Positions 149 to 32,577 of a stretch of 37,999 nt of DNA are shown one piece after another. How positions within the stretch are numbered: the stretch's first letter is position 1; each line of letters opens with the position of its first letter. The notes below the pieces were generated by a model. It had not been told where the DNA came from. It was given only the letters and a program-made list of their open reading frames with translations, and ran no database searches. The stretch is from Acidobacteriota bacterium (GTDB lineage: Bacteria > Acidobacteriota > Terriglobia > Bryobacterales > Bryobacteraceae): assembly GCA_016201205.1 (NCBI GenBank), contig JACQDF010000061.1, forward strand, positions 1 through 37,999, given 5' to 3'. The translations under genes and the position numbers were made by a program.

Positions 149-201
149 CCGCTTGCTGACGCGCGCGGCTCCGAAACAGAGCCGCGACCGTGAGGGAGCG
201 G
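149..201 (+). repeat. Dispersed imperfect palindrome, copy A (53 bp)
   Basis: Two 23-nt arms (149-171 and 179-201) flank a 7-nt loop CGAAACA; 18 of 23 arm positions can pair. The left arm begins CCGCTTGCTGACGCG and is identical to the corresponding arm of copies B and D. The whole 53-bp element is the reverse complement of copy D (32520-32572) except for one base. It sits between murD and ftsW, the only copy between co-directional genes. It looks like a REP/MITE-type element; no transposase is in the window. Confidence 0.85.
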
Positions 202-229
202 TTGGAAACGCTACACAGGAGCAGTCAGG

Positions 230-1363
230 ATGGCGCAGCAGTTGAAGACGGATCGCACTTTGTTTCTCACCGTTGTCGCGATGGTGTGCTTCGGCCTGGT
301 GATGGTGTACAGCGCATCCAGCGTGATGGCCGAGATGCGCTTCCAGGACAGCAACCGCTTCCTTTTCCGGCAGATGGGCTGGGCGGTCGCGTCATTCATC
401 GCGCTCATGTATTTCAAGCGCAAGGATTACCGCTCCCTGCGCGGTCCCACCTGGGCCTTTGCGCCGCTGGGGCTGGTGATGGCGTTGCTGGTCGTGGTCT
501 ATTTCGCGGACCGCTCCGCGCACCGCTGGCTGCGGTTCGGGTCCATCGGCATCCAGCCCTCCGAATTCGCCCGCCCCGCGCTGGTGATCTTTCTGGCGTG
601 GTTCGTCACGCGGCGCGCGCACGTCATCAACACGCGGCACACCCTCGCCCCGGCGGCGCTGGCGCTGGGCGTACTGGCGGCGGTTGTGACTGTCGCCGAC
701 CTGGGCACGGCGGCCGTGCTGGTATGCACCGGAGCGGCGGTCTTTTACGTGGCCGGGCTGGATAAGCGCTATTTCCTGGTGGCGTTTGGCGCCTGCGTGC
801 TGGTGCTGCCCGTCGCCATTCTCTCCAAGCCATACCGCCTGCACCGCATCATCGGGTACCTGGATCAATCATGGCTGGACAAGATCGACCCGGCCGGGCG
901 GATCAACGCGTGGGCCAGCCAGTCCCTGGCGGCGAAAGATTCCGGCTACCAGGTGCGGCAATCCAAGATCGCTGTCGGCGCCGGCGGGGCGCTCGGGCTG
1001 GGCCTGATGCAGGGCAGGCAGAAACATATGTATCTGCCGGAAGCGCACAACGACTTCATCTACGCGGTTATTTCCGAGGAGCTGGGACTGTGGGGCGCGA
1101 CTGCCGTGCTGGCCGCGTACATCGTCATTCTTTGGCGCGGCTTCCGGCTCTACTGGCTGGTGCACGATGATTTCGGACGCTACCTTGCGCTGGGAGTCAG
1201 CACCGTCATTGTGTGCCAGGCGCTGATGAACATCAGCGTCGTGCTGGACCTGGCGCCCACCAAGGGCTTCCCGCTGCCCATGATCAGCTACGGCGGCAGC
1301 TCCCTGTTGAGCACTCTTTCCTCTCTCGGCATTCTGATGAGCGTCAGCGAGCATGCGGGTTAA
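230..1363 (+). CDS. ftsW: Cell-division SEDS peptidoglycan glycosyltransferase FtsW
   Basis: Polytopic membrane protein of 377 residues, about the normal FtsW/RodA length, with roughly ten hydrophobic segments starting at residues 10-33. SEDS signatures are clear: HRWLRFGSIGIQPSEFAR after the early helices, PEAHNDFIYAVISEELG in the large external loop, and KGFPLPMISYGGSS near the C-terminus. SEDS proteins polymerise lipid II with a cognate class B PBP; FtsW does this at the septum. The position between murD and murG is the classic dcw location and separates it from RodA or SpoVE. An AGGAG 9 nt before the ATG at 230 supports this start. murG follows after 11 bp, so the two are probably co-transcribed and coupled. 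Confidence 0.95.
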   Translation: MAQQLKTDRTLFLTVVAMVCFGLVMVYSASSVMAEMRFQDSNRFLFRQMGWAVASFIALMYFKRKDYRSLRGPTWAFAPLGLVMALLVVVYFADRSAHRWLRFGSIGIQPSEFARPALVIFLAWFVTRRAHVINTRHTLAPAALALGVLAAVVTVADLGTAAVLVCTGAAVFYVAGLDKRYFLVAFGACVLVLPVAILSKPYRLHRIIGYLDQSWLDKIDPAGRINAWASQSLAAKDSGYQVRQSKIAVGAGGALGLGLMQGRQKHMYLPEAHNDFIYAVISEELGLWGATAVLAAYIVILWRGFRLYWLVHDDFGRYLALGVSTVIVCQALMNISVVLDLAPTKGFPLPMISYGGSSLLSTLSSLGILMSVSEHAG

Positions 1364-1374
1364 CGGAAATCAAG

Positions 1375-2517
1375 ATGAGAATCCGCATTCGCCGGTCTTC
1401 GAAAAAAGCCCGGCCCGGCCATCCCAGGAAGCTGGCGTTCCTGATGGCAGGCGGAGGAACGGGCGGTCACGTGATTCCGGCGATCGCGGTGGCCCGCGAG
1501 CTGAGGCGTCGTGGCCACCGGCCGTTCTTTATCGGGACGAGGGAAGGCCTCGAGAGCAAGCTGGTTCCGCCGGAGAACTTCCCCATCGAGTACATCGAGA
1601 TCGGCGGGCTGAAAGGCGTGGGATGGCGGCGGACGCTGCGCACGCTGTGGCAGTTGCCGCTGGCGGTGGGCAAGGCGGCCGGGCTGATCCGCCGCTATCA
1701 GGCGGTGGCCGTATTCAGCATGGGTGGCTACGTGGCCGGCCCGGCCACGCTGGCGGCGGGGCTGCTCGGCAAACCGGTGGTGCTCATGGAGCCCAATGCG
1801 ATGCCCGGTCTGGTGAACCGCTGGATCGGACGCATCGCACGGCGGGCGTTGCTGAGCTTTCCCGAAGCCGGACGTTTTTTTCCACCAGGACGCATCGAGA
1901 TGACGGGCCTTCCGGTGCGAGCGGAGTTTTTCGCGCTGGCCAAGAAACCGCGACAGCAGAAGCTGACGGTGCTGGTGACCGGAGGCAGCCGCGGCTCGCG
2001 CCGGCTGAACGAGGCCGGGCGCGCAAGCTGGCCTTTGTTCCAGCAGAGCCGTTTTCCCGTGCGCTGGATCCATCAAACCGGCTCGCAGGCTTTCACGGAG
2101 ATGGCGGCGGCCTTCCAGGCGAGCGGCTTGGAAGGCCTGGTGGCGGTGTTTATCGAAGACATGCCGAAGGCGTTCGCCGAGGCGGACGTGGTGGTGTGCC
2201 GCTCCGGCGCGGGCACGGTGGCGGAGCTGGCGGCGGCGGGCAGGCCCTCCATCCTGGTCCCTTTTCCCTATGCCGCCGACCAGCACCAGTTGCGCAACGC
2301 GGAGGCGATGGCGCGGGCCGGAGCGGCGCGCCTGATTCTCGACCAGGAGCTGACCGGCGAGGAGCTGTTTCACACCATCGCCGAGATGGCGTCCGCGCCG
2401 GGACTGCTCGAGCGCATGGCGGAGGCGGCGCGCCAGTTTGCGAGGCCGGGAGCGGCCCAAAGAGCGGCCGAGGCGCTCGAGGAAACGGCGCGGAGCGGGC
2501 GGATGAAAAAGAGTTGA
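1375..2517 (+). CDS. murG: UDP-GlcNAc:lipid I N-acetylglucosaminyltransferase MurG
   Basis: MurG converts lipid I to lipid II on the cytoplasmic face of the inner membrane. With the ATG at 1375 the product is 380 residues, slightly longer than the usual 355-370. The open frame extends further upstream, but that part overlaps ftsW in another frame, so 1375 is preferred; a later ATG at 1444 would cut into the glycine-rich loop. Visible GT-B motifs are MAGGGTGGHVIPAIAVA (about residues 24-40), FSMGGYVAGPATLAA, EPNAMPGLVNRW, VTGGSRGSRRLNEA and CRSGAGTVAELAAAGRPS with the following PFPYAADQHQLRNAEA donor-sugar loop. The N-terminus carries a basic stretch (MRIRIRRSSKKAR) that may help membrane association. 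The GGSRGS loop differs from the more common GGSxGA. Confidence 0.94.
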   Translation: MRIRIRRSSKKARPGHPRKLAFLMAGGGTGGHVIPAIAVARELRRRGHRPFFIGTREGLESKLVPPENFPIEYIEIGGLKGVGWRRTLRTLWQLPLAVGKAAGLIRRYQAVAVFSMGGYVAGPATLAAGLLGKPVVLMEPNAMPGLVNRWIGRIARRALLSFPEAGRFFPPGRIEMTGLPVRAEFFALAKKPRQQKLTVLVTGGSRGSRRLNEAGRASWPLFQQSRFPVRWIHQTGSQAFTEMAAAFQASGLEGLVAVFIEDMPKAFAEADVVVCRSGAGTVAELAAAGRPSILVPFPYAADQHQLRNAEAMARAGAARLILDQELTGEELFHTIAEMASAPGLLERMAEAARQFARPGAAQRAAEALEETARSGRMKKS

Positions 2518-2553
2518 CACCGGTTCCCGAAGCCGAAACAATTAAGGATAAAA

Positions 2554-3951
2554 ATGTTTTTTAAGCCCCAGCGCCTCCACTTCACCGGAATCGGCGGCAT
2601 CGGCATGAGCGGCATCGCCGAAGTGCTCCTGAACCTGGGCTATGAAATCACCGGTTCGGACGTGAAGCTGGGGCCGGCCACCGAGCGGCTGGCCTCGCTC
2701 GGCGCCCTCATCCGGGAGGGGCACGACCCCGCCCACGTGGCCGGGGCCAAGGCGCTGGTGGTGAGCTCGGCGATCGATCCGGCGAATCCGGAAGTCCTCG
2801 AAGCGCGCAGACTGCAAATCCCGGTGATTCCGCGCGGGGAGCTGCTGGCCGAGCTGATGCGCATGAAGTTCGGAATCGCCATCGCCGGCAGCCACGGCAA
2901 GACAACCACCACTTCGATGACGGCGGCGGTGCTCAGCCAGGCGGGGCTGGATCCCACTGTCGTCGTCGGCGGGCGCGTGACAGGCATGGGCGGATCGAAT
3001 GCGCGCGTCGGCAGGAGCGAATTCCTGGTGGTCGAGTCCGACGAGAGCGACGGATCCTTCCTGAAGCTGGCGCCGATCCTGGCGGTGGTCACCAACATCG
3101 ACCGCGAGCACCTGGATCACTACGAGTCTTTCGAAGCGCTGCTCGAGGCGTTTGCGTCCTTTGTCAACAAAGTGCCGTTCTACGGGGCGGCCATTCTCTG
3201 CCTGGACGACGAGAACGTGCAGAGCGTCCTCCCCAAAGTGCAGCGGCGCACGGTCACCTATGGGCGCAGTCCGCAGGCGGATCTGGTCATCGTGGATGTG
3301 GCCGGCGGTGCGACGTCGAGCGAGTTCACGCTTCGCCTCAAAGGCGACGACCTGGGCGGCTTTCGCGTGGGAGTGCCCGGCGCGCACAACGTGCTGAACG
3401 CGGCGGCGGCGGTGGCCGCCGGCCTCGAGCTCGAGATCCCGCTCGAGCAGATCCGCAAAGGGCTGGCCGGCTTCAGCGGCGTCGAGCGGCGGTTTCAGAC
3501 GCGCGGCTCGGCGGCGGGCGTCATGGTCATTGACGACTATGGCCACCACCCTACCGAGATCCGCGCCACACTCGACACGGCCCGGGTCTGCCGCTTCTCG
3601 CGCGTGCTGGTGCTGTTCCAGCCGCACCGCTACACGCGCACGCACCTGCTGATGGACGATTTCGCGCGTTCGTTCCACCTGGCCGACGCCGTATTTGTGC
3701 TGGAAATTTACGCCGCTTCCGAGGCGCCGATCGAGGGAGTAACGGCGCAAGCGCTGGTCGAGCGCCTGCGGCAGTTTGGGCACAAAGCCGCCGAATACGC
3801 CGGCGGCATGGAAGAGGGGATTCGCCGCGTCGTGGCCGCCAGCCAGCCCGGCGATGCCGTGATCACGCTGGGCGCCGGCAGCGTCTGGCAGGCCTGCGAC
3901 CGCATCCTCGAGGCGCTCCGCGCCCGGGAGCGGGTGGCGGCAAGGAGTTAG
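2554..3951 (+). CDS. murC: UDP-N-acetylmuramate--L-alanine ligase MurC
   Basis: First of the Mur ligases; it couples L-alanine to UDP-MurNAc using ATP. The 465-residue protein begins with the MurC Rossmann signature HFTGIGGIGMSGIAEVL (residues 8-24). The central-domain P-loop GSHGKTTTTSMTAAVL follows near residue 113, then ESDESDGSFL and TNIDREHLDHY, and the C-terminal domain motifs GVERRF, DDYGHHPTEI and FQPHRYTRTHLL. All are diagnostic for MurC rather than MurD, MurE or MurF. A ribosome-binding sequence TAAGGA lies 7 nt before the ATG. It ends 2 bp before ftsQ, with the ftsQ ribosome-binding site AAGGAG inside its last codons. In many bacteria murB and ddl follow murC; here neither does. 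Confidence 0.96.
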   Translation: MFFKPQRLHFTGIGGIGMSGIAEVLLNLGYEITGSDVKLGPATERLASLGALIREGHDPAHVAGAKALVVSSAIDPANPEVLEARRLQIPVIPRGELLAELMRMKFGIAIAGSHGKTTTTSMTAAVLSQAGLDPTVVVGGRVTGMGGSNARVGRSEFLVVESDESDGSFLKLAPILAVVTNIDREHLDHYESFEALLEAFASFVNKVPFYGAAILCLDDENVQSVLPKVQRRTVTYGRSPQADLVIVDVAGGATSSEFTLRLKGDDLGGFRVGVPGAHNVLNAAAAVAAGLELEIPLEQIRKGLAGFSGVERRFQTRGSAAGVMVIDDYGHHPTEIRATLDTARVCRFSRVLVLFQPHRYTRTHLLMDDFARSFHLADAVFVLEIYAASEAPIEGVTAQALVERLRQFGHKAAEYAGGMEEGIRRVVAASQPGDAVITLGAGSVWQACDRILEALRARERVAARS

Positions 3952-3953
3952 CC

Positions 3954-4871
3954 ATGGCTCGAAGATCCGTATCGGAAGAACTGGAATACCCGCTGCTCGA
4001 GCAGGTGGAGATGGAAACCGCGCCGGAGCCGGTCCGCCGGCCGAAAAACATCCGCCAGCCGGCCGGAACGGCGCGACGCAGAACGATCAATCTGTTTTAT
4101 TGGGCTCTGCCGTTTCTCGCTCTGGCGGCCGCCTTTCTGCTCACCATCGCCTTCCACCGCGTCGAGGCATGGCTGATCAACGATCCGCGCTTCCATCTGC
4201 CGCCTGCCGCCGGCTACGGAAAGGATCCGGCGAACCTTCAGATGGACGGCGTCCGGCGGTCGTCCAAGGCGGCGATCCTTCGAGTCCTGGAACAGGACTT
4301 CGGGCGCAGTCTGTACCTGTTCCCCGTCGCCGAGCGGCGGCGGCAGTTGCTGGCGGTGGATTGGGTCAGAGAGGCGACCGTGTCGCGCCGCTGGCCTGAC
4401 CGGCTGGCTGTCTTGATTCAGGAACGGGAGCCGGTGGCCTTCGTGCAAATCAACCGGCAGGGAAACGCGCCCCAGTTCCACTTGATCGACGCGGAGGGCG
4501 TCCTGCTGCCGTTGCCGCGAGGGGAAAGATTCAACTTCGCCGTGCTCACCGGCATCAGCGCGAGTGAGCCGGAGGCCTCGCGAAAGGTGCGCGTCCAGGC
4601 GGCCATGACGCTGCTCGGCGGGATCGGGCCGCTGTCGGCTCGGATCTCGGAAATCGACGTGCGCGATCCCGGCAACCTGAAAGCAGCGCTACAGGTGGAC
4701 CGCGACATGGTGACGGTGCTGCTCGGCAACCGCAATTTCCGCGCGCGGATCGAGAAATTTCTGGCTCACTACCAGGAAATTCATCAGCGCAGACCGGGCG
4801 CCAGGACTTTCGACCTCCAGATCGATGACCGGATCACGTCCCTGGAAGGAGCGGATGGTGGCGAATCTTAA
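3954..4871 (+). CDS. ftsQ: Cell-division protein FtsQ/DivIB
   Basis: Bitopic division protein of 305 residues that links early and late divisome components. It has a short basic cytoplasmic tail, one transmembrane helix (about residues 49-66, FYWALPFLALAAAFLLTIAF), a POTRA region, and the typical beta-domain sequence DWVREATVSRRWPDRLAVLIQERE-PVAF, with the conserved Arg-x-Trp-Pro. This pattern plus the location between murC and ftsA makes the assignment secure although FtsQ is poorly conserved. The AAGGAG in the end of murC serves as ribosome-binding site. The last 17 bases overlap the start of ftsA in another frame, which suggests translational coupling. Confidence 0.92.
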   Translation: MARRSVSEELEYPLLEQVEMETAPEPVRRPKNIRQPAGTARRRTINLFYWALPFLALAAAFLLTIAFHRVEAWLINDPRFHLPPAAGYGKDPANLQMDGVRRSSKAAILRVLEQDFGRSLYLFPVAERRRQLLAVDWVREATVSRRWPDRLAVLIQEREPVAFVQINRQGNAPQFHLIDAEGVLLPLPRGERFNFAVLTGISASEPEASRKVRVQAAMTLLGGIGPLSARISEIDVRDPGNLKAALQVDRDMVTVLLGNRNFRARIEKFLAHYQEIHQRRPGARTFDLQIDDRITSLEGADGGES

Positions 4872-6066
4872 CCGCAACTGGCGCCTGGCTGTGGGCCTGG
4901 ACGCGGGCAGCGCGAGGACGCGTTGCGTGATCCTGACGCTGGAGGACGGGCAGCTTCGTTTTCTCGGCTGGGGGGAAGCGCCAAGCCTGGGCTGGACAAG
5001 GGGCCGGATCGCGGATTCCGGCGCCGTCGCCGGGAGCATTCAGTACGCCGTGCGCGACGCCGAGCGGATGAGCCGTGCCTCGGTCGAGTCGGTGGTGGCC
5101 GGCGTGAGCAGCAACACCATCCAGGGGTTCCTCAGCCGCGGCGTCTACGAATTCGGCCGGCCGCGCCAAGTCGAGCAGGACAATCTCAGCTACGCGGTGC
5201 AACTGGCGTCGCGAGTTCGTCTGGAAGACGACCGCTTCGTGCTCCAGATGCTGCCGATGGACTTTACGCTCGACGGGCGGGCCGGCTTCCGCAATCCTCT
5301 GGGAGCCGTCTGCACGCGGCTGGAAGCGAATGTCTACGTGGTGAGCTGCTCGACGCGGGAGCACCAGGCGCTGGTCGGCGCCATCCACCAGGCCCACCTG
5401 GCGGTCGAGGAGACCGTCTTCGAGCCGGTGGCCGCCGCCTACGCCAGCATCCTGCCGGAAGACCGGATCCGCGGCGTCGCGCTGGTGGACATCGGGATGC
5501 ACAGCTCGAGTCTCGTCGTCTATGAAGGCGATGCGCTGTTGCGCGCCGCCGGCATCCCGGTGGGCGGAGAGCACTTCACACGCGACTTATCGCAGGTGCT
5601 GAAGGTGTCCTGGGAGGATGCTCACCAGCTCAAGGAAGAATACGGCTGCGCGATTCTGGGCTTGACCTCCGACAGCAGTTACATCGAGCTGCCTTCGCCG
5701 GAGGGCCGCGCGCCGCGCGAGTCGACCAGGCGGCATCTGAACGAGATTCTGGAAGCGCGCGCCGAAGAGTTGTTTCTGCTCGTGCGCGCGGAAATCGAGA
5801 AGTCCGGCTTGCGTCAGCCGCTGATGGAAGGCGTGGTGCTGACCGGTGGCGGCGCCCAGCTTACCGGCATGTGTGACATGGCGGAGGTGGCGCTGAATTG
5901 CCAGGCGCGCAACGGCCTGGCACAAGGCGTCGACGACTGGCCGGAGGAGCTCGATGGGCCGGCGTGGACCACAGCCGCCGGCCTGGCGATGTACTCGGCC
6001 CGTCTGAAGTCGCACCGCGAGCCCAGACGTCGCGCGCCCAGTTTTGTGGGATTGGTGCTGAAGTGA
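4855..6066 (+). CDS. ftsA: Cell-division actin-like ATPase FtsA
   Basis: FtsA tethers FtsZ to the membrane. The frame is open from an ATG at 4825, but the ATG at 4855 has a strong ribosome-binding site (GGAAGGAG, 4 nt upstream) and puts the first strand (LAVGLDAGSARTRCVI) near the N-terminus, so 403 residues are preferred. Actin-fold motifs are the phosphate-1 loop LDAGSARTR, phosphate-2 VALVDIGMHSSSLVVY, and the adenosine motif VVLTGGGAQLTGM. The 1C-domain region between them is present (QDNLSYAVQLASRVRLEDDR and after). The C-terminus, RRRAPSFVGLVLK, is short and could be the membrane-targeting amphipathic helix preceded by a basic linker. The gene lies between ftsQ (overlap) and ftsZ (62 bp), the standard order. 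Confidence 0.94.
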   Translation: MVANLNRNWRLAVGLDAGSARTRCVILTLEDGQLRFLGWGEAPSLGWTRGRIADSGAVAGSIQYAVRDAERMSRASVESVVAGVSSNTIQGFLSRGVYEFGRPRQVEQDNLSYAVQLASRVRLEDDRFVLQMLPMDFTLDGRAGFRNPLGAVCTRLEANVYVVSCSTREHQALVGAIHQAHLAVEETVFEPVAAAYASILPEDRIRGVALVDIGMHSSSLVVYEGDALLRAAGIPVGGEHFTRDLSQVLKVSWEDAHQLKEEYGCAILGLTSDSSYIELPSPEGRAPRESTRRHLNEILEARAEELFLLVRAEIEKSGLRQPLMEGVVLTGGGAQLTGMCDMAEVALNCQARNGLAQGVDDWPEELDGPAWTTAAGLAMYSARLKSHREPRRRAPSFVGLVLK

Positions 6067-6128
6067 ACCCCGCGGGCCGTCTTGTGACGCCGCGCGAGGC
6101 GGCAGTTGAGCGACACGGGAGGTGGAGC

Positions 6129-7427: not shown

Positions 7428-7464
7428 AAAAACGCCGGGATGGCCACCCTCACGCCACCCCGGC
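7425..7464 (-). terminator. Rho-independent terminator of the leftward TPR operon
   Basis: Read on the minus strand, a GC-rich stem (arms 7455-7464 and 7434-7443, ten positions with one A-C mismatch, 11-nt loop) is followed by a G and then seven U residues encoded by 7426-7432. The T-run overlaps the ftsZ stop codon. In the plus direction the A-run precedes the stem, so it should act on leftward transcripts, 36 bp beyond the TPR gene stop. The same stem could still slow rightward ftsZ transcription. Confidence 0.7.
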
Positions 7465-7500
7465 CCCGACCCAACTGGAGGTGTGAATCGAACGCAACTC

Positions 7501-9168: not shown

Positions 9169-9196
9169 GCTGCTCTCTCCCTTGTCCGATACCGCC

Positions 9197-11740: not shown

Positions 11741-11765
11741 GCTGGCGACGAGTTACCTCGGCTTC

Positions 11766-11795
11766 TATAGTAGGCATAGAAGGGGCAAGATTCTA
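11766..11795 (-). promoter_or_regulatory. Possible promoter for the zinc-ribbon/TPR operon
   Basis: On the minus strand a TACTAT (11766-11771) resembles a -10 element, with a weak TAGAAT at the -35 position (11790-11795) and an 18-bp spacer. It lies 25 bp before the ATG at 11740 in a locally AT-rich patch. The -35 match is poor, so this is a weak call. Confidence 0.25.
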
Positions 11796-11839
11796 GTACT
11801 CGAATCCACCTAGTTGTAGACCTCTCCTAGCACCTAGTT
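11793..11839. promoter_or_regulatory. CTAG cluster with a 9-bp direct repeat between divergent genes
   Basis: CTAG occurs at 11793, 11810, 11827 and 11834, the first three exactly 17 bp apart. Two of them are within a 9-bp direct repeat CACCTAGTT (11807-11815 and 11831-11839, starts 24 bp apart). The cluster lies in the 220-bp region between the leftward zinc-ribbon operon and the rightward roadblock gene. CTAG is normally rare in bacterial DNA, so a binding site is plausible. The regulator is unknown. Confidence 0.35.
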
Positions 11840-11960
11840 TGGGGGTAGCCACTGCCTGAAGAAGGGGGTTGGAAGCGGCTGGTCGCAAGTAAAGTTTCCT
11901 GATTGTCGTGTCGATGAAATACCTGCGGGCATACAACTGTATCACCGGCCCGGAGGGAGC

Positions 11961-12326
11961 ATGGTGCACATCGATCAGATTCAGCAAGACCTGGAAAACC
12001 TGCGCGCGACAGTGCCCGAACTGAAAGGCGTGCTGCTGGCGTCCAACGAAGGTGAGCCGATTGCCCATTCTCTTTCTACAGATGCGGATCCCAGCCGGAT
12101 TGCCGCGATGGCCGCGGCGGCATCCAGCCTGGGGAAGCGAGTCAGCGAATCCTTAAGCGCCGGCTCCTTGAGCGAAATCAGCCTGAGTGGGACCGAAGGG
12201 CAGGTGTTTCTGTACAATGCGGGCGGCAAGGCGGTGCTGGCGGTGATTGGGCCGTCCGGGGCCAACACGGGGCTGATCCATCTGGAAGCGCGCTGGGCTG
12301 CGCGGGAAATCGGCGAGCGGTTTTAG
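11961..12326 (+). CDS. Roadblock/LC7 domain protein (MglB-like fold)
   Basis: A 121-residue single-domain protein of the roadblock/LC7 superfamily. It starts IDQIQQDLENLRATVPELKGVLLASNEGEPIAHSL, the typical helix then first two strands, continues with the long central helix (DPSRIAAMAAAASSLGKRVSESL), and ends with the strand pair GQVFLYNAGGKAVLAVIGPSG and a final helix. In bacteria such proteins are usually partners or GAPs of small Ras-like GTPases (MglA) in polarity or motility, or occur in GTPase-conservon operons. No MglA-like GTPase is next to it here. The ATG at 11961 has a strong GGAGGGAGC ribosome-binding site. It is divergent from the zinc-ribbon/TPR operon and convergent with the stress-protein gene. 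The family call is firm; the function is open. Confidence 0.85.
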   Translation: MVHIDQIQQDLENLRATVPELKGVLLASNEGEPIAHSLSTDADPSRIAAMAAAASSLGKRVSESLSAGSLSEISLSGTEGQVFLYNAGGKAVLAVIGPSGANTGLIHLEARWAAREIGERF

Positions 12327-12372
12327 GAGCAAGGCCGGAGGGCTACGGAATAACGTTGCCAACCGTTCGGGA

Positions 12373-12431
12373 CCGCTTGCTGACGCGCGCGGCTCAGCAA
12401 GGGTTTCCGAGCCGCTAGCGTGAGTGAGCGG
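12373..12431 (+). repeat. Dispersed imperfect palindrome, copy B (59 bp)
   Basis: Left arm 12373-12395 is identical over 23 nt to the left arm of copy A. The right arm is 12409-12431 and the loop is 13 nt. Outer flanks CCAACCG and CGGTTGG extend the symmetry, and the right flank TTGGAAA is shared with copy A. It lies between the convergent roadblock and universal-stress genes, 46 and 44 bp from their stop codons. Confidence 0.85.
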
Positions 12432-12475
12432 TTGGAAAGGTTACTTAATGACAGGCCCTTATGGCGCGAGCAGCG

Positions 12476-14957: not shown

Positions 14958-15361
14958 TGAAGCCTTTCCGCTGGCAGGCCCGCATCCGGTTTGCGGATAC
15001 CGACGCCAGCCAGCGTATCCACTACACGGCGATGTTCCGGCATTTCGAGGCCTCCGAACAGGAGTTCCTGCACGCGCTCGGATGCCCCTACACGAGCCAC
15101 GAGCATCGCGATTTCGGTTTTCCGCGCGTGCACGTCGAGTGCGATTTTCAGTCGGAGATCCGCTATGACGACCTGGTGGACATTGACGTCACCGTGGACC
15201 GCGTCGGCACATCGTCGTTCACGCTGGCATTCGCCGCCGGCGTCGCGGGCCGCAACGCGGCCAAAGGGAAGGTAACGGTGGTGTGCCTGGACCGCCACAC
15301 CGAACGGTCCACGCCGCTGCCAGCGCGGCTTGCCGAGGCGCTGCGGCGCTATCTGGCCTAA
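14957..15361 (+). CDS. Hotdog-fold acyl-CoA thioesterase (YbgC/4-hydroxybenzoyl-CoA thioesterase family)
   Basis: 134 residues with the family signature at the N-terminus: RIRFADTDASQRIHYTAMFRHFEASEQEFL, where the second Asp of ADTDA is the catalytic position in the 4-hydroxybenzoyl-CoA thioesterase group. The core continues with VHVECDFQSEIRYDDLVDIDV and a strand FTLAFAAG. It should hydrolyse an acyl-CoA in the cytoplasm; the acyl group cannot be read from sequence. The ATG at 14957 overlaps the stop of the upstream regulator by one base (TGATG); a GTG one codon earlier is an alternative start. The overlap suggests joint expression with the regulator, but no functional link is evident. It converges with the histidine kinase gene, with repeat copy C between them. 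Confidence 0.85.
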   Translation: MKPFRWQARIRFADTDASQRIHYTAMFRHFEASEQEFLHALGCPYTSHEHRDFGFPRVHVECDFQSEIRYDDLVDIDVTVDRVGTSSFTLAFAAGVAGRNAAKGKVTVVCLDRHTERSTPLPARLAEALRRYLA

Positions 15362-15370
15362 GTGTGCCAA

Positions 15371-15429
15371 CCGCTCCGTGACCGTCGCGGCTCGGAAGCG
15401 CTTTCCGAGCCGCGCGCGTGAGCAAGCGG
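15371..15429 (-). repeat. Dispersed imperfect palindrome, copy C (59 bp, inverted)
   Basis: The arm at 15407-15429, read on the minus strand, matches the conserved arm of copies A, B and D at 22 of 23 positions. The partner arm is 15371-15393. The 13-nt loop GGAAGCGCTTTCC can itself pair and lengthen the stem. It starts 9 bp after the thioesterase stop and ends 38 bp before the stop of the convergent kinase gene. Confidence 0.85.
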
Positions 15430-15467
15430 CGGTGTCAACCTGAAGCAGTAATTCCATGACATGCGGC

Positions 15468-18400
15468 TCAGGCGGATTGAGGCGCCGGCGCCTGGTCCGG
15501 TTTCCCGGCCCACCTGCAAACGGTTTGGTGAAGCTGTTCCATCTTCACGGGCTTCGAGAGGAAGTCATCCATGCCCGCCTCCAGACAGCGTGTGCGATCC
15601 CCTTCCATCGCATTGGCCGTCATGGCGACAATCGGTGTTCTGTGCAAGCCAAGCTGGGCTTCCCGCCTCCGGATCTGGGCCGTCGCCTCATAGCCATCGA
15701 CTTCCGGCATATGGCAATCCATGAGCACCAGATCAAACCCGGACTGTTCCCATAAGCGGACGCCCTCCAGTCCGTTGGCGGCCAGCTCGACATTGCAGCC
15801 GAATTTCTCAAGAACTCGAAGCGCGAGTTTTTGGTTGACCGGATTGTCCTCGACGACGAGCACCCTGGCGCTGGCGAGCGAGACGGGGGCTGCCGGCGGC
15901 GCCGGCGCCGGCGCCGGCTTGGCCAAGGGCCCCTCGCCGTTTTCAATCCGGCAGCAGCGCAGCACGTCGCGCAACAATTCCCGCACCCCCACGGGCTTGA
16001 GAACAACGAGATTCACGCCGGCTGCTTCCATCAGCGCGTGGTCTGCGCGCCGGCGCAGAAAGGTGAGCAGGATAATCCGGAGGTCCGGACACAGCCGGTC
16101 TGCGCGGATTTCTTTCACTGTTTCCAACGAGCTCGATTCCCGGCTTTGGTCGACCAGCAGGAGGTCGTATGAGCTGTCCCGGATTCGCTCCCGCAGCAGG
16201 GCCGGGGATGCTTCGAGATCCACCTGGAAGCCGGCCGTTTGCAGGGCCTGGCACAGCGCCAGCCGCTGTGGCTCGACGCCGGAGACCACCAGGGCCCGCC
16301 TTCCTGACGCCGCAGCCCGAACCTGGGCGCTCAGCGTCTCCACTCCTTCGCCCACCTCCACGGGGACCGTGAACGTGAAGGTCGACCCCTTTTCCGCTTC
16401 GCTCTCGAAATGAATGGCGCCGCCCAGAAGATCCACCAGCCGCCGGCAGATTGCCAGTCCCAGGCCCGTTCCTCCATAGCGCCTGGTGGTGGACGCATCG
16501 GCCTGGGTGAACTGATGAAACAGGCTCGCCTGCTTGTCGGCGGGGATGCCGATTCCTGAATCCCGTACCCGGACTCGCAAGGTGAGGAAATTGCCGAAGC
16601 GTTCTTCCACGCCAACCTCGACGGCCACAAATCCTCGCTCGGTGAACTTGACCGCGTTGCCAACCAGGTTCAGCAGGATCTGGCGCAGCCTGGCCGGATC
16701 GGTAATGACCGCCGCGGGAATGTCCGGCTCGATGAGCGTCACCATCTCGATCTTTTTTTCGAAAGCCTTCGCCGCCAGCAACTGAACGACATCGGAAATG
16801 CACTCTTCCAGATCGAAAGAGATCTTCTCGACCTGCATCTTGCCGGCCTCTATCTTGGAAATGTCGAGAATGTCGTTGAGGATGGTTAGCAGCGATTCGG
16901 CCGAATGACGCACCGTCTCGGCATACTCGCGCTGCTCGGCGTTCAGGCTGGTTCCCAGCAGCAGTCCGGTCATCCCGAGCACGCCGTGCATCGGCGTCCG
17001 GATCTCGTGGCTCATGTGCGCCAGAAATTCACTCTTCGCTCTGGCGGCTGTTTCAGCCTGGCGATGTGCTTGCTTGAGCTGCTCGACCAGATTGTGCAGC
17101 TCCTGCTCGGCTCGCTTTCGTGGCGTGATATCGCCGATTGAGCCCGCCATGCGCGTGGCTCGTCCGGCATCGGTCCAGATGGCAAGCCCCCGCATCCGGA
17201 ACCAGCGGTACTCCCCATTTTTCATCCCAAGCCGGCATTCGACCTCGTACGGAACGCGGTGACTCAAGTGTTCGCGCAGCGCCCGGTGAACCCTTTCGCT
17301 GTCGTCCGGATGCAGCCGTTCCTCAAAGAACTCCATCGAGTCGCCCGCTTCCCTCTCGTCGCAGCCCAGCAGTTCCAGAAAGCGGGGCGAATAGTAGATC
17401 TTCCCGCCGGCGATGTCCCAGTCCCAGATTCCGTCGCTCGATCCGCGAACGGCGAGCTCAAACCGCTCCCGGCTTGATCGCAGATCCTTCTCCGCCTGCT
17501 TGCGTAATGTAATGTCCTCCAGCAGCCACACTTCCCCGTCTTCGCAGCGGTAGGCGGCCACTGCGAGGTAGCGCATCTGGCCATCCTTGCGGAAAATCCT
17601 GGCCACGCCGGGTTTGGGAAACCCTCGTTCGCGCTCGCGCTCGTAGTTGCGCCGCAGGGTGGCGGCATTCTCCCGCCCCAGCAGCCGGAACCAGTCATCC
17701 ACTGTCGAGATCTCCTCCCGCAGATATCCGGTCATCTCCTCCACAGCCTTGTTCAATTGAAGATACTCGTCCTTGCGGAACACCGCACCGGCCGGCAGAT
17801 TCTCGACCAGCATCCGCAGACGATGCTCGCTGGCGCGCAACGCTTCTTCCACACGTTTGCGTGTGGTGATATCCATCACCGTTCCGATGTAGCCAGTCAG
17901 TGTTCCGGTCTCCTCTCGCAGCGGCGCCGCTTTCAGCAAAACCCATCTGTTGTCCCGGTGCGCGCACGCCAGCCGGCATTCCAGTTGCATCTCCTGTTGT
18001 TTCGCCACCGCCTGCCGCCAGGACTGTATGACAAACTCGAGGTCGTCCGGGTGGATCGCTTTGTACCAGCCCATTCCCAAACCCTGCTTGGTCTCGAAGC
18101 CGCAAATCTCGCTCCAGCCTTTGTTCACATAAAGGCACTGGCCTTCCGGGTCAGCGAGAAAGATACCTACGGGCGCGTGCTGCGCCAGTGTCTCAAAACG
18201 CTGCATGCTGGCTCGCAAGGCGGCCTCCGCCCGCTTGCGCTCGATGGCCAGTCCCGCCAGCTCCGCGGAAGCCTCGAGAGTTCGCAGCTCGACTGCGGTC
18301 GGAGCCTTGCTCTCCCGGTGGTAGATCGTAAGCGCGCCCAGCACGCGTCTGGAGCGGTCGCGAACGGGCACGGACCAGGAAGCACGAATCGCCATCTGCC

Positions 18401-19484: not shown

Positions 19485-19549
19485 AGTTCCCTCCCTCTTC
19501 CTCCCCTTATCGGTGCAAGAAGGAAGACCTGATTGAAAGCTTGTGTAAG

Positions 19550-19570
19550 GCTTCCGTATGATACGGAAGC
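19550..19570. promoter_or_regulatory. Perfect 10-bp-arm palindrome abutting the start codon at 19571
   Basis: GCTTCCGTAT (19550-19559), one G, then ATACGGAAGC (19561-19570) directly followed by the ATG. As DNA it could be an operator in the 86-bp divergent region between the kinase and the PHP-fusion gene. As RNA the hairpin would enclose the only purine-rich sequence upstream of the start (GGAAG), blocking ribosome entry. Confidence 0.5.
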
Positions 19571-22201: not shown

Positions 22202-22226
22202 CGGTGTTACAATGGGGCACTTTCCT

Positions 22227-23639: not shown

Positions 23640-23692
23640 CCGCGCCCGCATCCGCGCCAATGCTAGGATGATTCTAAAGGAGCTTCCCCGCA

Positions 23693-24892: not shown

Positions 24893-24896
24893 TCCC

Positions 24897-26039: not shown

Positions 26040-26040
26040 A

Positions 26041-26057
26041 GCGGGCCTGAGGCCCGC
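26041..26057. other. Intercistronic 7-bp hairpin between acyl-CoA dehydrogenase and meaB
   Basis: GCGGGCC (26041-26047), TGA loop, GGCCCGC (26051-26057): a perfect stem one base after the stop codon, with no U-run. It may protect the upstream message end or attenuate expression; it is not a convincing terminator. Confidence 0.4.
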
Positions 26058-26067
26058 AAGCGCGCCC

Positions 26068-26970
26068 ATGACCAACATCTCACCAGAGCCGATCCTCGCC
26101 GGCGACATCCGCGCCATGGCCCGGGCCGCCACCGCCATCGAGAATCGCACCGCTGCCGCCGAGCCGCTGCTCAAAGCGCTGTTCCCGCACACCGGACAGG
26201 CGGCGGTCATCGGCATCACGGGCCCTCCCGGGGCGGGCAAGAGCACGCTGGTGGATCAGCTCACACGCATTCTGCGCGCCGAAGACGTCCCTACCGGCAT
26301 CATCTGCGTGGATCCGTCGAGCCCGTTTTCCGGCGGCGCCATTCTCGGCGACCGCATCCGCATGCAGCGCCATCACGCCGACCCGGGCGTGTTTGTCCGC
26401 TCGATGGCGACCCGCGGCTCGGTGGGCGGCCTCGCCCGCGGCACGCTGGAAATGGCGCTGATGCTCGATGCTGCCGGCAAGCGGGTCATTCTCATCGAGA
26501 CCGTCGGCGTCGGCCAGGACGAAGTCGAGGTGGCCCGGCTGGCGGACGTCACCGCCGTTGTGCTGGCGCCCGGCATGGGAGACGACGTGCAGGCGCTCAA
26601 GGCCGGCATTCTGGAAATCGCCGATGTGTTCGTGATCAACAAGGCGGATCTGGAAGGCGCGGCCCGCCTCGAGCAGGAGCTGCGCGCCATGCTGAGCCTC
26701 GCAACGCGGCCGGTGGAAGTGCCCATTGTGAAGACGGTCGCCAGCCAAGGCGACGGCATCGGGGAAGCGCTGGCCGCCATCCGTTCCGTGCAATCGGGGA
26801 ACAAGCGCGACTCGGTGCGTTTGTGGGCGCTGCGGCTGCGCGAGATGCTGCGTGAGCGGCTGCTCGAGCGGATTCCACTGGAGGAGCTGGGAGCTGCCGC
26901 CGAGGCAGTGGCTTCGCGCCGGCAAGATCCGTACACGATCGTCGAGCAATGGCTCTCCACGCTATACTGA
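26068..26970 (+). CDS. meaB: MeaB/ArgK-type G3E GTPase (methylmalonyl-CoA mutase chaperone family)
   Basis: 300 residues. It carries Walker A GPPGAGKST (52-60), CVDPSSPFSGGAILGDRIRM, the switch-like RSMATRGSVGGLA, Walker B VILIETVGVGQDEVEVA, and the guanine motif NKADL. The combination DPSSPFSGGAILGDRIRM and ETVGVGQDEVE is diagnostic of MeaB/YgfD. MeaB protects and reloads adenosylcobalamin-dependent acyl-CoA mutases with GTP hydrolysis; in the family it usually lies near the mutase subunits. No mutase is in the window, but the acyl-CoA dehydrogenase next to it fits a branched-chain or propionyl-CoA degradation context. The family C-terminal dimerisation region appears short but present (RLWALRLREMLRERLLERIP). 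Confidence 0.92.
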   Translation: MTNISPEPILAGDIRAMARAATAIENRTAAAEPLLKALFPHTGQAAVIGITGPPGAGKSTLVDQLTRILRAEDVPTGIICVDPSSPFSGGAILGDRIRMQRHHADPGVFVRSMATRGSVGGLARGTLEMALMLDAAGKRVILIETVGVGQDEVEVARLADVTAVVLAPGMGDDVQALKAGILEIADVFVINKADLEGAARLEQELRAMLSLATRPVEVPIVKTVASQGDGIGEALAAIRSVQSGNKRDSVRLWALRLREMLRERLLERIPLEELGAAAEAVASRRQDPYTIVEQWLSTLY

Positions 26971-26991
26971 GTCATTTTTGGGAGTCCACCG

Positions 26992-29900
26992 ATGCACCTG
27001 ATCACCTCTTTGCTCCTTCTCCTCTTCGCGCAACGGCCCACACCGCCGGCGAAGCCCGACCGAGACCCCTTCTCCGCACAAACCTTCCTCGGGCTGCGGC
27101 TCCGCTCGATCGGACCCGCCCTCTCGAGCGGGCGGGTGACCAGCTTCGCCGTCGATCCTCGCAACCATGCCCACTACTACGTCGGTGTAGCCTCCGGCGG
27201 AGTGTGGAAGACGACCAATGCAGGCATTACCTTCACTCCGGTTTTCGACAACGAAGGTTCCTACTCGATCGGCCACGTCGCCCTGGACCCCAGGAATCCC
27301 AGCACCGTCTGGGCCGGCGCCGGCGAAAATAACTCGCAGCGCAGCGTCGGCTACGGCGATGGCGTCTATCGCTCCGACGACGGCGGGCGCACCTGGGGCA
27401 ATATGGGCCTCAAAGCCAGCGAGCACATCGGGCGCGTCCTGATCGACCCGCGCAACTCCGACACGATCTTCGTCGCCGCCCAGGGACCTCTCTGGGGCTC
27501 CGGCGGCGATCGCGGTCTCTTCAAATCCACCGACGGCGGCAAGACCTGGAAGAACGTGCTCTCGATCAGCGAAAACACCGGTGTCACCGATGTCGCCCTC
27601 TCTCCGCACAACCCCGATTTCATGCTGGCCGCTTCCTGGCAGCGCCGGCGTCACGTTTGGACGCTGATCAACGGCGGCCCGGAGAGCGCCCTTTACAAAT
27701 CGCGTGACGGCGGCAACACCTGGACCAAAGTGCGCGGCCTGCCCACGGAAGACCTTGGCCGCATCGGCCTTGCATTCTCGCCCGCGCAGCCCTGTCTGGC
27801 GTACGCGCGTGTCGAGATCGCAAGCCCCCAAAGCGCCATCTTCCGCTCGACCGATTGCGGCGAATCCTGGGAGCGCCGCGGCAACTTCGACGGCCAAGGC
27901 ATGTACTACGGCCAGATCATCGCCGACCCCGCCGACTCCGACCGCGTCTACCTCGGCGACGTCCGCGGCCGCGTTTCAGACGACGGCGGCCGCACGCTGC
28001 GCCAGGCCGGCGACCGTTCCAAGCACCCTGACACCCATACCTATTGGATCGACCCCGGCAACAGCAACCACCTGCTTTCAGGCTGCGATGGAGGCGTTTA
28101 CGAATCCTACGACCGCGCCCAGACCTGGCGCTTCCTGGGAAATATCCCCACCATGCAGTTCTACGACGTCACCGTCGACAACTCCGCGCCTTTCTACTAC
28201 GTCTACGGCGGCACGCAGGACAACTTCTCGGTCGGCGGCCCGTCGCGCACCAGGAACGCGTCCGGCATCGTCACTTCCGATTGGTTCGTCACCCAGGGCG
28301 GCGACGGCTTCCACTCCCGTGTCGATCCATCAGACTCCAACATCGTTTATTCGGTGATGCAGTACGGCGGCATCATCCGTTACGACCGCCGCACCCGCGA
28401 GCGCACCGGCATCAGACCTGTCGAAGGCAAAGGAGAGCCGCCGCTGCGCTGGAATTGGGATTCGCCGCTCATCGTGAGCCCGCACTCGGCTTCCCGCATC
28501 TACTTCGCCGCCAATAAACTCTTTCGCAGCGACGACCGGGGCGGCGCCTGGCGCGCCGTCTCGCCTGATCTCACCCGCCAGCTTGACCGCGACGCTCTCC
28601 CGGTGATGGGCCGCATCTGGGGACCGGACTCCGTCGCCAAGCACCAATCGACATCGTTCTACGGCAATCTCACCGCTCTCGCCGAATCGCCCGGCAAGGA
28701 AGGGCTGCTCTACGCAGGCACGGATGACGGCCTGATCCAGATTTCCGAAAACGGCGGCAGCGGCTGGCGCAAAACCGATTCCTTTCCCGGAGTCCCGGAG
28801 CGCACCTTTGTCACGCGCATCCTTCCATCCCAGCACGATGACTCCACCGTTTACGCACTCTTCAACAATCACAAGAACGCCGACTTCAAGCCCTACGTGC
28901 TCAAGAGCAAAGACCGCGGCGTCACCTGGACCGCCATCCAGAACGACCTGCCCGCCGGCGGCCCCGTCTGGGCCATCGCCGAAGACCACGTGAATCCCGA
29001 TCTGCTCTTCGTGGGAACGGAGTTCGGCCTTTACTTCACGATCAACGGAGGCCAGAAGTGGATTCGCCTCCGCGGCGGCCTGCCGACCATCGCTGTGCGC
29101 GACCTGGCCATCCAGAAGCGTGAAAACGATCTCGCTCTGGCCACTTTCGGACGAGGCTTCTATATTCTTGATGACTACACGCCGCTGCGCCTGCTGAAAC
29201 CGGAAACGCTGGAACAGGAGGCGACGCTGTTCGCTGTAAAGAACGCATCCATCTATATCGAAGCCCAGCCCATCGGCGGCCGCGGCAAGGCGTTTCAAGG
29301 GGAAGCTTACTTCACCGCGGAGAACCCGCCCTTCGGCGCGGTCTTTACGTATTTCCTGAAGGAGACTTTGCGCACGAAGAAGCAGCAGCGCCAGGAAGCC
29401 GAACGCCAGGCCGTTCGCGAGAAGCAGGAAATCCGGTATCCGTCCCGGGAACAGCTCAGCAAGGAAGATGCCGAGGAGGCGCCGGCGATGATCCTGACCA
29501 TCACCGACAGCGCCGGCAAGGTGGTGCGCCGTCTCAACGGCCCCGCGCAGCGCGGATTCCAGCGGGTCGCCTGGAACCTGCGCACGCCCCCGCCGAGCCT
29601 GCCTGCCCAGCGGCGGCCGGGCGCCGAAGAAGAGGAAGAGGAACCCTTCCGTTTTGCTCCGACAGGCCACCTGGTGGCGCCGGGCGCGTACCGCGTCTCG
29701 ATCGCCAAACGCGTCGATGGTGTCCTCACGCCTCTCTCACAGGCACAATCCTTCCAGGTCCAGGGCTCGACCGGCCTGCAACATCTCTCCGAATTCCAGC
29801 AGAGCGTGCTGCGATTACAGCGCGCGGTCAACGGAGCCACTGAAAACCTCACCAGCGCGGCCCAGAAGATGGCCGCCATCCTTCGCGCTCTGGACGAATC

Positions 29901-30240
29901 GAATGCCGATCCGAAGCTCCGTCAGGAAGCCTCGCGCATCAACCAGCGGCTTCGACAGATCTCCGCAGCCGTCCGCGGCGATGAGGCTCTTCGACGCCGC
30001 CAGGAGAATCTGCCGGTATCGATCAACGAACGCGTCCAGCGCCTGGCCGGCAATTACCGAATGTCCACCGCGACGCCGCTCAAGACCGATCAGGACAGCC
30101 TCAGGATCGCCGGCGAAGAGATGAAGGAGCAACTGGCCGCCCTGCGGGCGGCGCTCGAGACGGATCTGAAGAAGCTCGAGAAGGAAATGGAAGCGGCCGG
30201 GGCGCCGCACACGCCTGGCCGGATTCCTGACTTGAGGTAG
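26992..30240 (+). CDS. Exported BNR/VPS10-type (sortilin-like) beta-propeller protein
   Basis: 1082 residues. A short hydrophobic N-terminus ([16 protein letters not shown]) is a probable signal peptide. Many Asp-box/BNR turns are visible: [66 protein letters not shown] and [11 protein letters not shown], in two propeller blocks covering about residues 40-740. Then come a region with a charged helix ([19 protein letters not shown]), a beta-sandwich-like segment with [15 protein letters not shown], an acidic EEEEEE patch, and a helical C-terminus with coiled-coil character ending in [11 protein letters not shown]. Proteins of this layout are abundant in Acidobacteriota and Bacteroidota and are often labelled glycosyl hydrolase, but no catalytic residues can be named here. 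It begins 21 bp after meaB. Confidence 0.9.
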
Positions 30241-30242
30241 GC

Positions 30243-32507
30243 ATGATAGAGAAACCGGCATCTGTAAAGGACCCCGTGTGCCAGATGGATGTGAACCCGG
30301 TCACGGCCGCGGCCTCCCACGAATACCAGGGCACGACCTATTATTTCTGCTCCCAGGGTTGCCGGCAGCGCTTCCAGATCAACCCGGAGCGCTATCTTGC
30401 GCCTGCCAGGCGCGTCGAAGACCTGCCCAAAGACAGCGAGTACACCTGCCCGATGCATCCCGAGATCGTCCAGGCCGGTCCCGGCGCGTGTCCCAAGTGC
30501 GGCATGGCGCTCGAGCCCAGGACGTTCTCCCTCGAAGAGGCGGAAAACCCGGAGCTCGAAGACATGCGCAAGCGGCTGTTCGTCGCCGCGCTGTTCACGG
30601 CGCCGTTGTTGCCGGCCGCCATGGGCGGCTGGAGCGTGTTGCTCCAGCTCCTGCTGGCCACGCCGGTTGTGCTCTGGGCGGGCTATCCGTTCTTCGAGCG
30701 CGGCTGGCAGTCGATCCTGACCCGGCATCCGAACATGTTCACGCTGATCGCCATCGGCACGGGCACGGCGTATGGCTACAGCCTGATCGCGGCGCTGGCG
30801 CCCAGCCTGATTCCGCCGGCCATGCTCGAGCACCACGGCCAGCCGGCTGTGTACTTCGAAGCTGCCGCCGTGATCGTGACGCTGGTGCTGCTGGGACAGG
30901 TGCTCGAGTTGAAGGCGCGTGAGCGCACCGGCAGCGCCATCCGCGCCCTGCTGGGACTCGCTCCGAAAACAGCCCGTATGGTGATCGAGAACGGCCACGA
31001 AATGGATGTGGCCATCGAGCAGGTGCGCCGTGGCGACGTCCTCCGCGTGCGTCCCGGCGAAAAAATCCCGGTGGATGGCGTTGTCAGCGAAGGGCTCAGC
31101 GCCGTCGACGAATCGATGGTGACCGGCGAGCCGCTGCCGGTGGAAAAAACGCCAGGCAGCAAAGTCACCGGCGGCACGGTGAACGGCGTCGGATCGTTTC
31201 TGATGCGCGCCGAGCGGGTGGGCGCCGAAACATTATTGGCGCGCATTGTGCAGATGGTGAGCGAAGCGCAACGCAGCCGCGCGCCCATCCAGCGGCTGGC
31301 GGACAGGGTCGCGGCCTGGTTCGTCCCGGCTGTCGTGGCCGTGTCGGTGGTCTCGTTTGCGGCCTGGGCAATGTGGGGTCCGGAGCCGAGGCTGGTGTAT
31401 GCGCTGGTGAACGCGGTCGCGGTGCTGATCATTGCCTGCCCGTGCGCGTTGGGGCTGGCCACGCCGATGTCCATCATGGTCGGCACCGGGCGCGGCGCGC
31501 AGGCCGGCGTCCTCATCCGCAATGCCGAAGCGCTGGAAACACTGGAGAGGGTGGACACGCTGCTCATCGACAAGACGGGCACGCTGACCGAAGGCAAGCC
31601 GCGGGTGGCGGCCATCGGGGGAGCAGGCGGATTCACCCAGGAAGAGGTGCTGCGGATGGCGGCTTCGCTCGAGCAGGCCAGCGAGCATCCGCTGGGAGCG
31701 GCCATCCTCGATGCCGCCCGCGAGCGCCAGTTGCCTCTCGGCAAGACGGGCCTTACGCGCACGTTCCCTGGACTCGGGGTCGCCGGCCAGGTGGACGCGC
31801 GCTTTGTCCTGCTCGGAAACCCGCGCTTTTTCGGCGAGCGCGGCGTCGATGCCGGCGATCTGCCCTCATCGAGCGAGCGGCTTCGCGAGCAAGGCCAAAC
31901 GGTGATCTGGATCGCCATCGACCTGCGCGCCGCCGGCTGGATCGCCATCGAAGATCCGGTCAAGCGAACCGCACCTGAAGCGCTGTCCGAATTGAAGGCG
32001 GACGGCATCCGGGTGGTGATGGTGAGCGGCGATCAGAAGCGCACAGCGGAAGCAGTCGCGCGCCGCCTGGGCATCGAGGAGTTCGAAGCCGAAGCGCTGC
32101 CCGAGACCAAAGGACAGATCGTCGAGCGCTATCAGAAGCAAGGCCGCATAGCCGCCATGGCGGGCGACGGCATCAACGACGCGCCGGCGCTGGCCAAGGC
32201 CCACGTTGGCGTCGCCATGGGCAGCGGCACGGATATCGCCATGGAGAGCGCCGGCATCACGCTGGTGAAAGGCGATCTGCGGGGCATCGTACGGGCGCGA
32301 CGCCTGAGCAAAGCGGTGATGCGCAACATCCGGCAGAACCTGTTCTTTGCCTTCGTCTACAACATGCTGGGCGTGCCCATCGCCGCCGGCGTGCTCTATC
32401 CGTTCTTCGGGATTCTCCTCAGTCCGATGATCGCGGCGGCGGCGATGACGTTGAGCTCCGTTTCGGTGATCAGCAACTCGCTGAGGCTGCGGCGTGTGCG
32501 GCTGTGA
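30243..32507 (+). CDS. copA: Copper-translocating P1B-type ATPase with YHS and heavy-metal-binding N-terminal domains
   Basis: 754 residues. The N-terminus has a YHS domain ([23 protein letters not shown]; residues 9-50) and a [22 protein letters not shown] metal-binding domain (about 62-84), but no CxxC HMA ferredoxin-like domain. Then come the transmembrane helices, actuator loop with TGE ([10 protein letters not shown]), the ion-pathway motif CPC at 399-401 in helix 6, the phosphorylated Asp443 in [10 protein letters not shown], the HP motif in SEHPLGAAI, and [10 protein letters not shown]. The last helices carry [11 protein letters not shown] and [16 protein letters not shown], typical of Cu+/Ag+ exporters. 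It uses ATP to export Cu+ to the periplasm. The ATG is 2 bp after the stop of the propeller protein, implying translational coupling; no CueR or CsoR gene is nearby. Confidence 0.94.
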
Positions 32508-32519
32508 CCGGTGGCGCCT

Positions 32520-32572
32520 CCGCTCCCTTACGGTCGCGGCTCTGTTTCGGAGCCGCGCGCGTCAGCAAGCGG
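32520..32572 (-). repeat. Dispersed imperfect palindrome, copy D (53 bp, inverted)
   Basis: Reverse complement of copy A (149-201) with one mismatch over all 53 bp, including an identical 7-nt loop. Arms are 32520-32542 and 32550-32572. It fills almost all of the gap between the convergent copper ATPase gene (stop 12 bp away) and the TonB receptor gene (stop codon 5 bp away), so both transcripts would end in this stem-loop. Confidence 0.88.
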
Positions 32573-32577
32573 TCTGT

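Follow-up and report, generated by a model that had tools for sequence, protein, structure and literature searches.

A dispersed family of REPIN-type palindromes in an Acidobacteriota genome and its probable class 3 TnpA-Y1 partner

Four near-identical imperfect palindromes scattered over a single contig raise the question of what kind of element they are and what might have spread them. The contig (JACQDF010000061.1 of assembly GCA_016201205.1, positions 1 to 37,999; hereafter the window, meaning the whole stretch analysed) belongs to a Bryobacteraceae bacterium of the Acidobacteriota, whose 7.0 Mb genome (G000, with the window as contig C144) is available as a 94% complete bin of 392 contigs. 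A first-pass annotation, made from the letters alone, had suggested repetitive extragenic palindromic (REP) elements moved by REP-associated tyrosine transposases (RAYTs), or small miniature inverted-repeat transposable elements (MITEs). The analysis reported here indicates that the palindromes are very probably REPIN-type doublets of a REP family belonging with the class 3 TnpA-Y1, a REP-associated tyrosine transposase. The protein motifs, the REP foot and the taxa involved match those of class 3, and the family is therefore assigned to the class 3 REPtron and its REPs; it is a known kind of system in a new host, with an anatomy sharper than that given in the published text consulted.

Anatomy and abundance of the doublets

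Direct reading of the window placed the four palindromes at 149-201 (copy A), 12373-12431 (copy B), 15371-15429 (copy C) and 32520-32572 (copy D), as annotated, and all of them lie outside called genes. The 23-nt arm CCGCTTGCTGACGCGCGCGGCTC was exact in A, B and D and had one mismatch in C, A and D were reverse complements of each other with 98% identity over 55 nt, and the loop measured 7 nt in A and D and 13 nt in B and C. Each 53-59 bp palindrome is composed of two REPs placed foot to foot, forming a REPIN-like doublet. The fixed asymmetry described in the annotation was borne out, but not the free variation of the other arm, which is a second REP type with its own hairpin, GAGCCGCGACCGTNAGGGAGCGG in most copies; the asymmetry exists because the two REP types differ. 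In copy A, a T-type REP with foot CGGA (149-173, minus strand) faces a G-type REP with foot CAGA (177-201, plus strand), both presenting the hairpin fold, and the same pair of feet is found in copy D (T-type at 32548-32572, plus strand; G-type at 32520-32544, minus strand). Copy B joins a T-type REP with foot CTGA (12373-12397, minus strand) to a second REP with a variant centre and foot CCGA (12407-12431, plus strand). In copy C both feet are CCGA (T-type at 15405-15429, plus strand; G-type at 15371-15395, minus strand), and the inner stem of its G-type REP carries a compensated change from C-G to G-C.

The arms follow one plan. Read from the centre of the doublet outward, both begin with the foot CnGA, followed by GCCGCG..AGCGG. 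The C of the foot was present at position -2 in 109 of 111 sampled arms of the own genome, the second base being free; this C lies outside the search pattern, of which the GA of the foot forms part. A search of the sampled loci with fixed outer anchors and a free centre retrieved 230 arms, 200 of them with a ten-base centre that gave 39 distinct centres, the other 30 being excluded. The two inner pairs were of Watson-Crick type in 32 and 35 of these 39 centres, against means of 16.9 and 24.0 and maxima of 25 and 29 in shuffles, and this covariation indicates that each arm is therefore a hairpin. It consists of CCGC, two mismatches, two pairs, a GTNA loop, two pairs, two mismatches and GCGG, and T-type and G-type arms adopt the same folded shape, at -5.4 and -5.3 kcal/mol. 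The 53-nt doublet of copy A folds at -19.8 kcal/mol, which is strong in comparison with shuffles (z -4.4). The foot-to-foot pairing of one T-type with one G-type arm was scored by script in 32 of the 35 doublets of the sampled own DNA; the remaining three were scored as GG, and visual inspection shows in each of them a T-like arm that carries a substitution. The loops of these 35 doublets measured 7 nt (8 doublets), 13 nt (23), 14 nt (1) and 15 nt (3).

A 9-nt centre was found in 23 of the 230 anchored arms, ACCACAGGG and ACAGCATGG among them. Such arms were observed in loci L037, L108, L116, L122, L146, L153, L154, L167, L192, L194 and L212, some of them sitting in class 3 loci devoid of standard arms, and they may represent a shorter-loop REP type in relatives. 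L018 (1501-1597, with a period of 37 bp) and L007 (1501-1610) depart from the usual doublets and carry single REP arms or loop-arm units repeated head to tail.

The annotation had predicted hundreds of copies from four in 38 kb, and the genome scan agreed, excluding the outcome of only four. The arm CCGCTTGCTGACGCGCGCGGCTC had 213 matches with up to three mismatches (111 forward, 102 reverse), and the reversed control had none, a difference that is not due to chance; the general arm pattern, with at most one mismatch, had 337 matches in the genome and its control none there. The junction of copy A was seen on two contigs (window 149-201 and the end of contig C46, locus L012) with few differences, and the same was noted for L022 and L024. 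The bin thus seems to hold strain variants, and the copy counts therefore include a few duplicates.

A class 3 transposase beside the repeats

The annotation had called for a search for a RAYT-type gene flanked by the same arms, and such a gene was found. The Pfam domain Y1_Tnp occurs at three places in the own genome, on contigs C7, C216 and C202. The C7 gene, which ends near the contig end, has one arm just upstream, and relatives of its protein, many of them flanked by arms, were detected in 21 genomes out of 81, a count that includes the own genome. Among the best 80 of the 112 class 3 loci found, 55 had an arm beside the gene on at least one side and 36 on both; the 300 bp preceding the matched stretch held an arm in 45 loci and the 400 bp following it in 46, and at more than 1 kb from the gene the same 80 loci held 15 arms in 514 kb. 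In a frequent layout, both REP tails face the gene. Moreover, at least five arms were present in 20 of the 21 genomes with a class 3 gene versus 10 of the 60 without it, and the number of arms was higher where the gene was present (Mann-Whitney p 2.9e-10 over the 81 genomes; p 1.3e-7 within the family of the window).

The class of the transposase was read from 67 near-full-length proteins of the 80 loci. The H-hydrophobic-H (HuH) motif was found in 66 of them (NHVH in 34, THVH in 15) and a Y....Q motif in 64, most commonly as YVVEEQ (7), whereas the class 2 motif Y...NP was present in none and the class 1 motif Y...Q in one. All four proteins scanned scored 25-32 bits with transpos_IS200, against a cut-off of 55, and also stayed below the cut-off of the NCBIfam model REP_Tyr_transpos. 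A sequence search of PDB was weak (best E 0.034); the predicted structural model resembles the TnpA of IS608 and ISDra2 as well as the REP transposase of E. coli (PDB 4er8), giving the protein a predicted HUH/Y1 fold.

Other Y1 genes were considered as partners and rejected. Arms were near one of 30 other Pfam Y1 loci (L083); 12 of the 30 belong to arm-free genomes, and the fair control is therefore 1 in 18. The own Y1 genes on C216 and C202 had no arms beside them. The C216 gene (L032, 1400-2280) is flanked by other palindromes (GGCTGAAGCCCGG.. and GGCCTTCTGGCCGG..), and this locus probably represents a further REP/RAYT family of this genome. The Y1_Tnp gene on C202 (L033, 1-1000) presents one in-frame TGA, next to what we take to be the remnant of an IS66-type open reading frame.

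Several observations weigh against this assignment of the repeats. Single hairpins were weak in comparison with shuffles (z -0.4 for T, -1.8 for G), and 25 of the 80 class 3 loci had no arm in the examined flanks, some of which are cut by a contig end. The cross-genome counts are uncorrected for phylogeny, and other Y1 genes also weakly tracked the number of arms (p 0.03). In genomes G073 (172 arms) and G028 (176 arms) the class 3 gene was not found even by a profile search, and may have been lost or missed by the bins, and G041, with 235 arms, gave only class 3 fragments by profile. Both class 3 genes detected in the own genome (C7 and C266) have one in-frame stop each, and the 4.2 kb contig that carries the C266 gene lacks a good arm. 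Finally, no transposition event was observed.

The last group of observations bears on a reading that we consider a serious possibility, somewhat short of an even chance, namely that the copies are relics, spread once by a class 3 TnpA and now decaying in this genome. The two in-frame stops, the fragments in G041 and the many half copies or mosaics favour it. However, the T-type arm copies were all exact among the matches listed, the stops may be assembly errors, and an intact gene may be missing because the bin is only 94% complete; moreover, the relic reading is compatible with the class 3 assignment rather than opposed to it. Recent spread, which the annotation gave as one possible cause of the conservation, is conjectural, given the stops in both genes and a DNA identity to same-genus relatives of about 67-77% in the stretches compared.

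Outer palindromes, placement and empty sites

The cores had the extent described in the annotation, but the repeated unit of copies B and C is longer than 59 bp: the core is flanked by outer palindromes specific to each subfamily, which bring the unit to about 100-120 bp. The composite unit of copy B, with the subfamily 2 outer palindrome, spans 12345-12461 on the plus strand; its stretch 12345-12448 was matched at 95%, its right end was read directly, and TGTCA is missing from its left part. That of copy C, with a subfamily 3 outer palindrome truncated in its right half, spans 15362-15465 on the minus strand, and window 15359-15471 was matched at 94% by another contig of the same genome. Outer palindromes accompany part of the copies only, some of them with sharp ends, and loop length tracks the outer sequence: a distinct flanking palindrome tends to go with loops of 7 nt, with each of two 13-nt kinds and with loops of 15 nt. 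Among 47 doublets, the outer halves were matching in 18, mixed in four, with one half unrecognised in 23 and with both unrecognised in two, the typing having no right-hand probe for subfamily 4. In the mixed copies (e.g., L302, L305 and L310) the change from one outer type to the other takes place at the core.

These features lead us to a tentative proposal, to which we give a rather low probability, that the full units are hybrids: long palindromes of at least three kinds, some with sharp ends, enclose a class 3 REPIN, and their left and right halves recombine via the core. One conserved single-strand processing module, the two REP hairpins placed foot to foot, may thereby capture, spread and reshuffle outer palindromes, its 23-nt arm being preserved with hardly a change in bins that carry the labels of other phyla, as the adjoining transposase diverges to about 52-58% identity.

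The small MITE of the annotation would be a different entity, a composite mobile unit of about 100-130 bp that ends in inverted repeats (AGGGCCTGTCA.. in subfamilies 2 and 3, TAAACAC.. in subfamily 1) and is mobilised by a DDE transposase of the conventional type, the core being just the centre of the unit. The term is partly apt, as some copies do have longer, sharp-ended outer palindromes. BLAST with the B-type unit found at least 46 places in the genome (40 of 256 candidates scored), and 13 of the 45 non-query matches share a common left end at query 35-40, seven of them at 37. Similarly, a REP arm was near 36 of 37 outer-sequence matches in the sampled own DNA, the exception being a 15-mer with two mismatches, and by eye L312 is flanked by TGA on both sides, a possible target duplication. 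However, the flanking duplications, as read by eye, appear inconsistent (TTA against ATA in L296), copy A is nearly without an outer part, and the doublets with one or both outer halves unrecognised amount to 23 and 2 of 47. Moreover, conservation of the core extends across genomes and to the copies next to class 3 genes, whereas the outer parts differ by subfamily. MITEs usually present the reverse. The MITE reading is considered improbable.

The placement of the doublets was scored with a simple gene caller in gaps of at least 20 bp, on 21 regions of the own genome (372 kb), most of them chosen for holding copies. Elements were found in 12 of 25 convergent, 21 of 118 tandem and none of 34 divergent gaps (convergent vs tandem p 0.003; divergent vs the rest p 0.0005), with four inside called genes. 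In the window, copies B, C and D lie between convergent genes, D occupying most of a 70-bp gap, and copy A lies between the stop of a gene cut by the window edge, presumably murD-like, and a gene starting at 230 that we take to be ftsW-like.

Relatives provided empty sites for copies A and C, as the annotation had proposed to check. The junction of copy A was devoid of an arm in all 10 relatives' loci read, i.e., those where the match reached near the gene start, with L276 left out. For copy C, the left gene was found in eight of 19 loci and the right gene in only one, the same-genus locus L226; at this single testable site, the same convergent pair is separated by 16 bp between stop codons instead of 106, without the element. 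The neighbours of copies B and D do not adjoin in relatives, among the places listed; there, the genes to the left lie on contigs different from those that hold the right-hand genes (window 11961-12326 and 30285-32578), and these sites could be rearrangement breakpoints at the elements.

Among genomes of the same genus, the number of arms ranged from 0 to 337, six of 11 relatives having none. A cross-phylum search detected arms in 12 of 16 bins and none in the other four, and the G-type arm, with up to two mismatches, had 78, 79 and 263 matches in bins titled Verrucomicrobiia, Armatimonadetes and Singulisphaera, respectively, a remark that rests on labels because record titles are unreliable. 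For example, L213, titled Bordetella parapertussis, is apparently a mislabelled acidobacterial bin, and a class 3 match was seen both in L213 and on contig C18 of G035 (L118), a genome of the window's own family.

That the palindromes are immobile elements selected for a host function, such as 3'-end RNA hairpins, terminators or nucleoid sites, is very improbable: their position at gene 3' ends and absence from divergent gaps favour it, but the distribution within the genus is patchy, orthologous junctions are empty in relatives, arms adjoin a transposase gene, no Rfam family matched the window at the gathering threshold, which also speaks against a known structured RNA, and placement between tandem and convergent genes is described for other REPs in the parts consulted of Di Nocera et al. 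2013 (PMC3733652). The annotation's alternative of REPs moved by RAYT proteins is instead in agreement with the hundreds of copies, the arm-flanked Y1 subfamily, its co-occurrence with the arms and the empty sites.

Putative mechanism and comparison with known systems

The repeat is probably mobile, and the way it would spread is drawn from better-studied relatives. By analogy with the E. coli TnpA-REP and with IS200/IS605, the transposase would bind the REP hairpin in single-stranded DNA, as on the lagging-strand template, the foot would guide the choice of the cleavage dinucleotide, a 5'-phosphotyrosine link would be formed, and the doublet would be moved or copied, with a polarity presumed from the same analogy, into intergenic DNA at gene 3' ends. 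The dinucleotide TC follows T-type arms in 37 of 53 cases in the own DNA and in three of 22 elsewhere, and follows G-type arms in 14 of 68 cases elsewhere; given this contrast, a guide-complementary TC cleavage site is only a guess.

Class 3 thereby gains exact candidate substrates, two REP types with a foot, a bulge and a GTNA loop. With the 80 named loci, 55 of them with adjoining REPs, and a range of 0-337 arms in one genus, the function of class 3 can be addressed directly, both in vitro and by comparing strains. Most intriguing are the nesting of the doublets in outer palindromes whose halves form mosaics and the close preservation of the arm in bins to which other phyla are assigned by label.

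In the main-text sections of Quentin et al. 2018 (PMC6006769), class 3 was defined on the basis of 24 proteins and viewed as perhaps intermediate between the insertion sequences of class 1 and the REP transposases of class 2, its behaviour being left open, with the motifs NHVH, W[TA] and YV[VI]xEQ (Y....Q; also given as YV[VI][AENY]EQ), and with REP-like structures that have a CnGA foot and about 600 copies in Solibacter usitatus. As far as those sections go, the family described here shares the protein motifs, with conservation extended at the N terminus, the length (published median 178 aa; here mostly 157-183), the taxa (Planctomycetes, Acidobacteria, Proteobacteria), the CnGA foot, the gene flanked by REPs and the high copy number (337 arms here), and differs in that both host genes found here have an in-frame stop. 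The same sections, supplements aside, hold no class 3 REP sequence, heterodimer anatomy, stem covariation, outer palindromes or mosaic copies. In the later literature, no recognisable class 3 REP work appears in the titles and abstract openings of the papers listed, subscription papers and supplements aside, and the term "class 3" has no occurrence in the text of PMC8266576.

Beyond class 3, the protein differs from IS200/IS605 transposases (class 1), which have Y...Q and whose curated IS200 cut-off it stays below. The E. coli TnpA-REP (subclass 2.2, PDB 4er8) has Y...NP and a GTAG foot instead of Y....Q and CnGA, and the cleavage of its REPs depends on foot and bulge, according to the parts consulted of PMC8266576; likewise, the GTAG REPs of subclasses 2.2, 2.4, 2.5, 2.7 and 2.8 have a GT[AG]G foot. 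A parallel in architecture is offered by the REPINs, defined as inverted REP doublets by Bertels and Rainey 2011 (PMC3116915, consulted in part): the palindromes of the window are similarly inverted REP doublets with a spacer, extragenic and near a dedicated Y1 transposase, but their foot is CnGA rather than of the GTAG type, each doublet combines two different REP types, and some of the copies are enclosed in longer outer palindromes. Finally, in the consulted parts of Di Nocera et al. (PMC3733652), REP dimers inside longer palindromes are reported for A. variabilis and H. neapolitanus, where REP-free copies were not found. These nested dimers, and the TIRYTs of Acidobacteria in the same work, resemble the nested doublets described here but involve other sequences and another transposase class, and the target palindrome of T. 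roseum also occurs alone.

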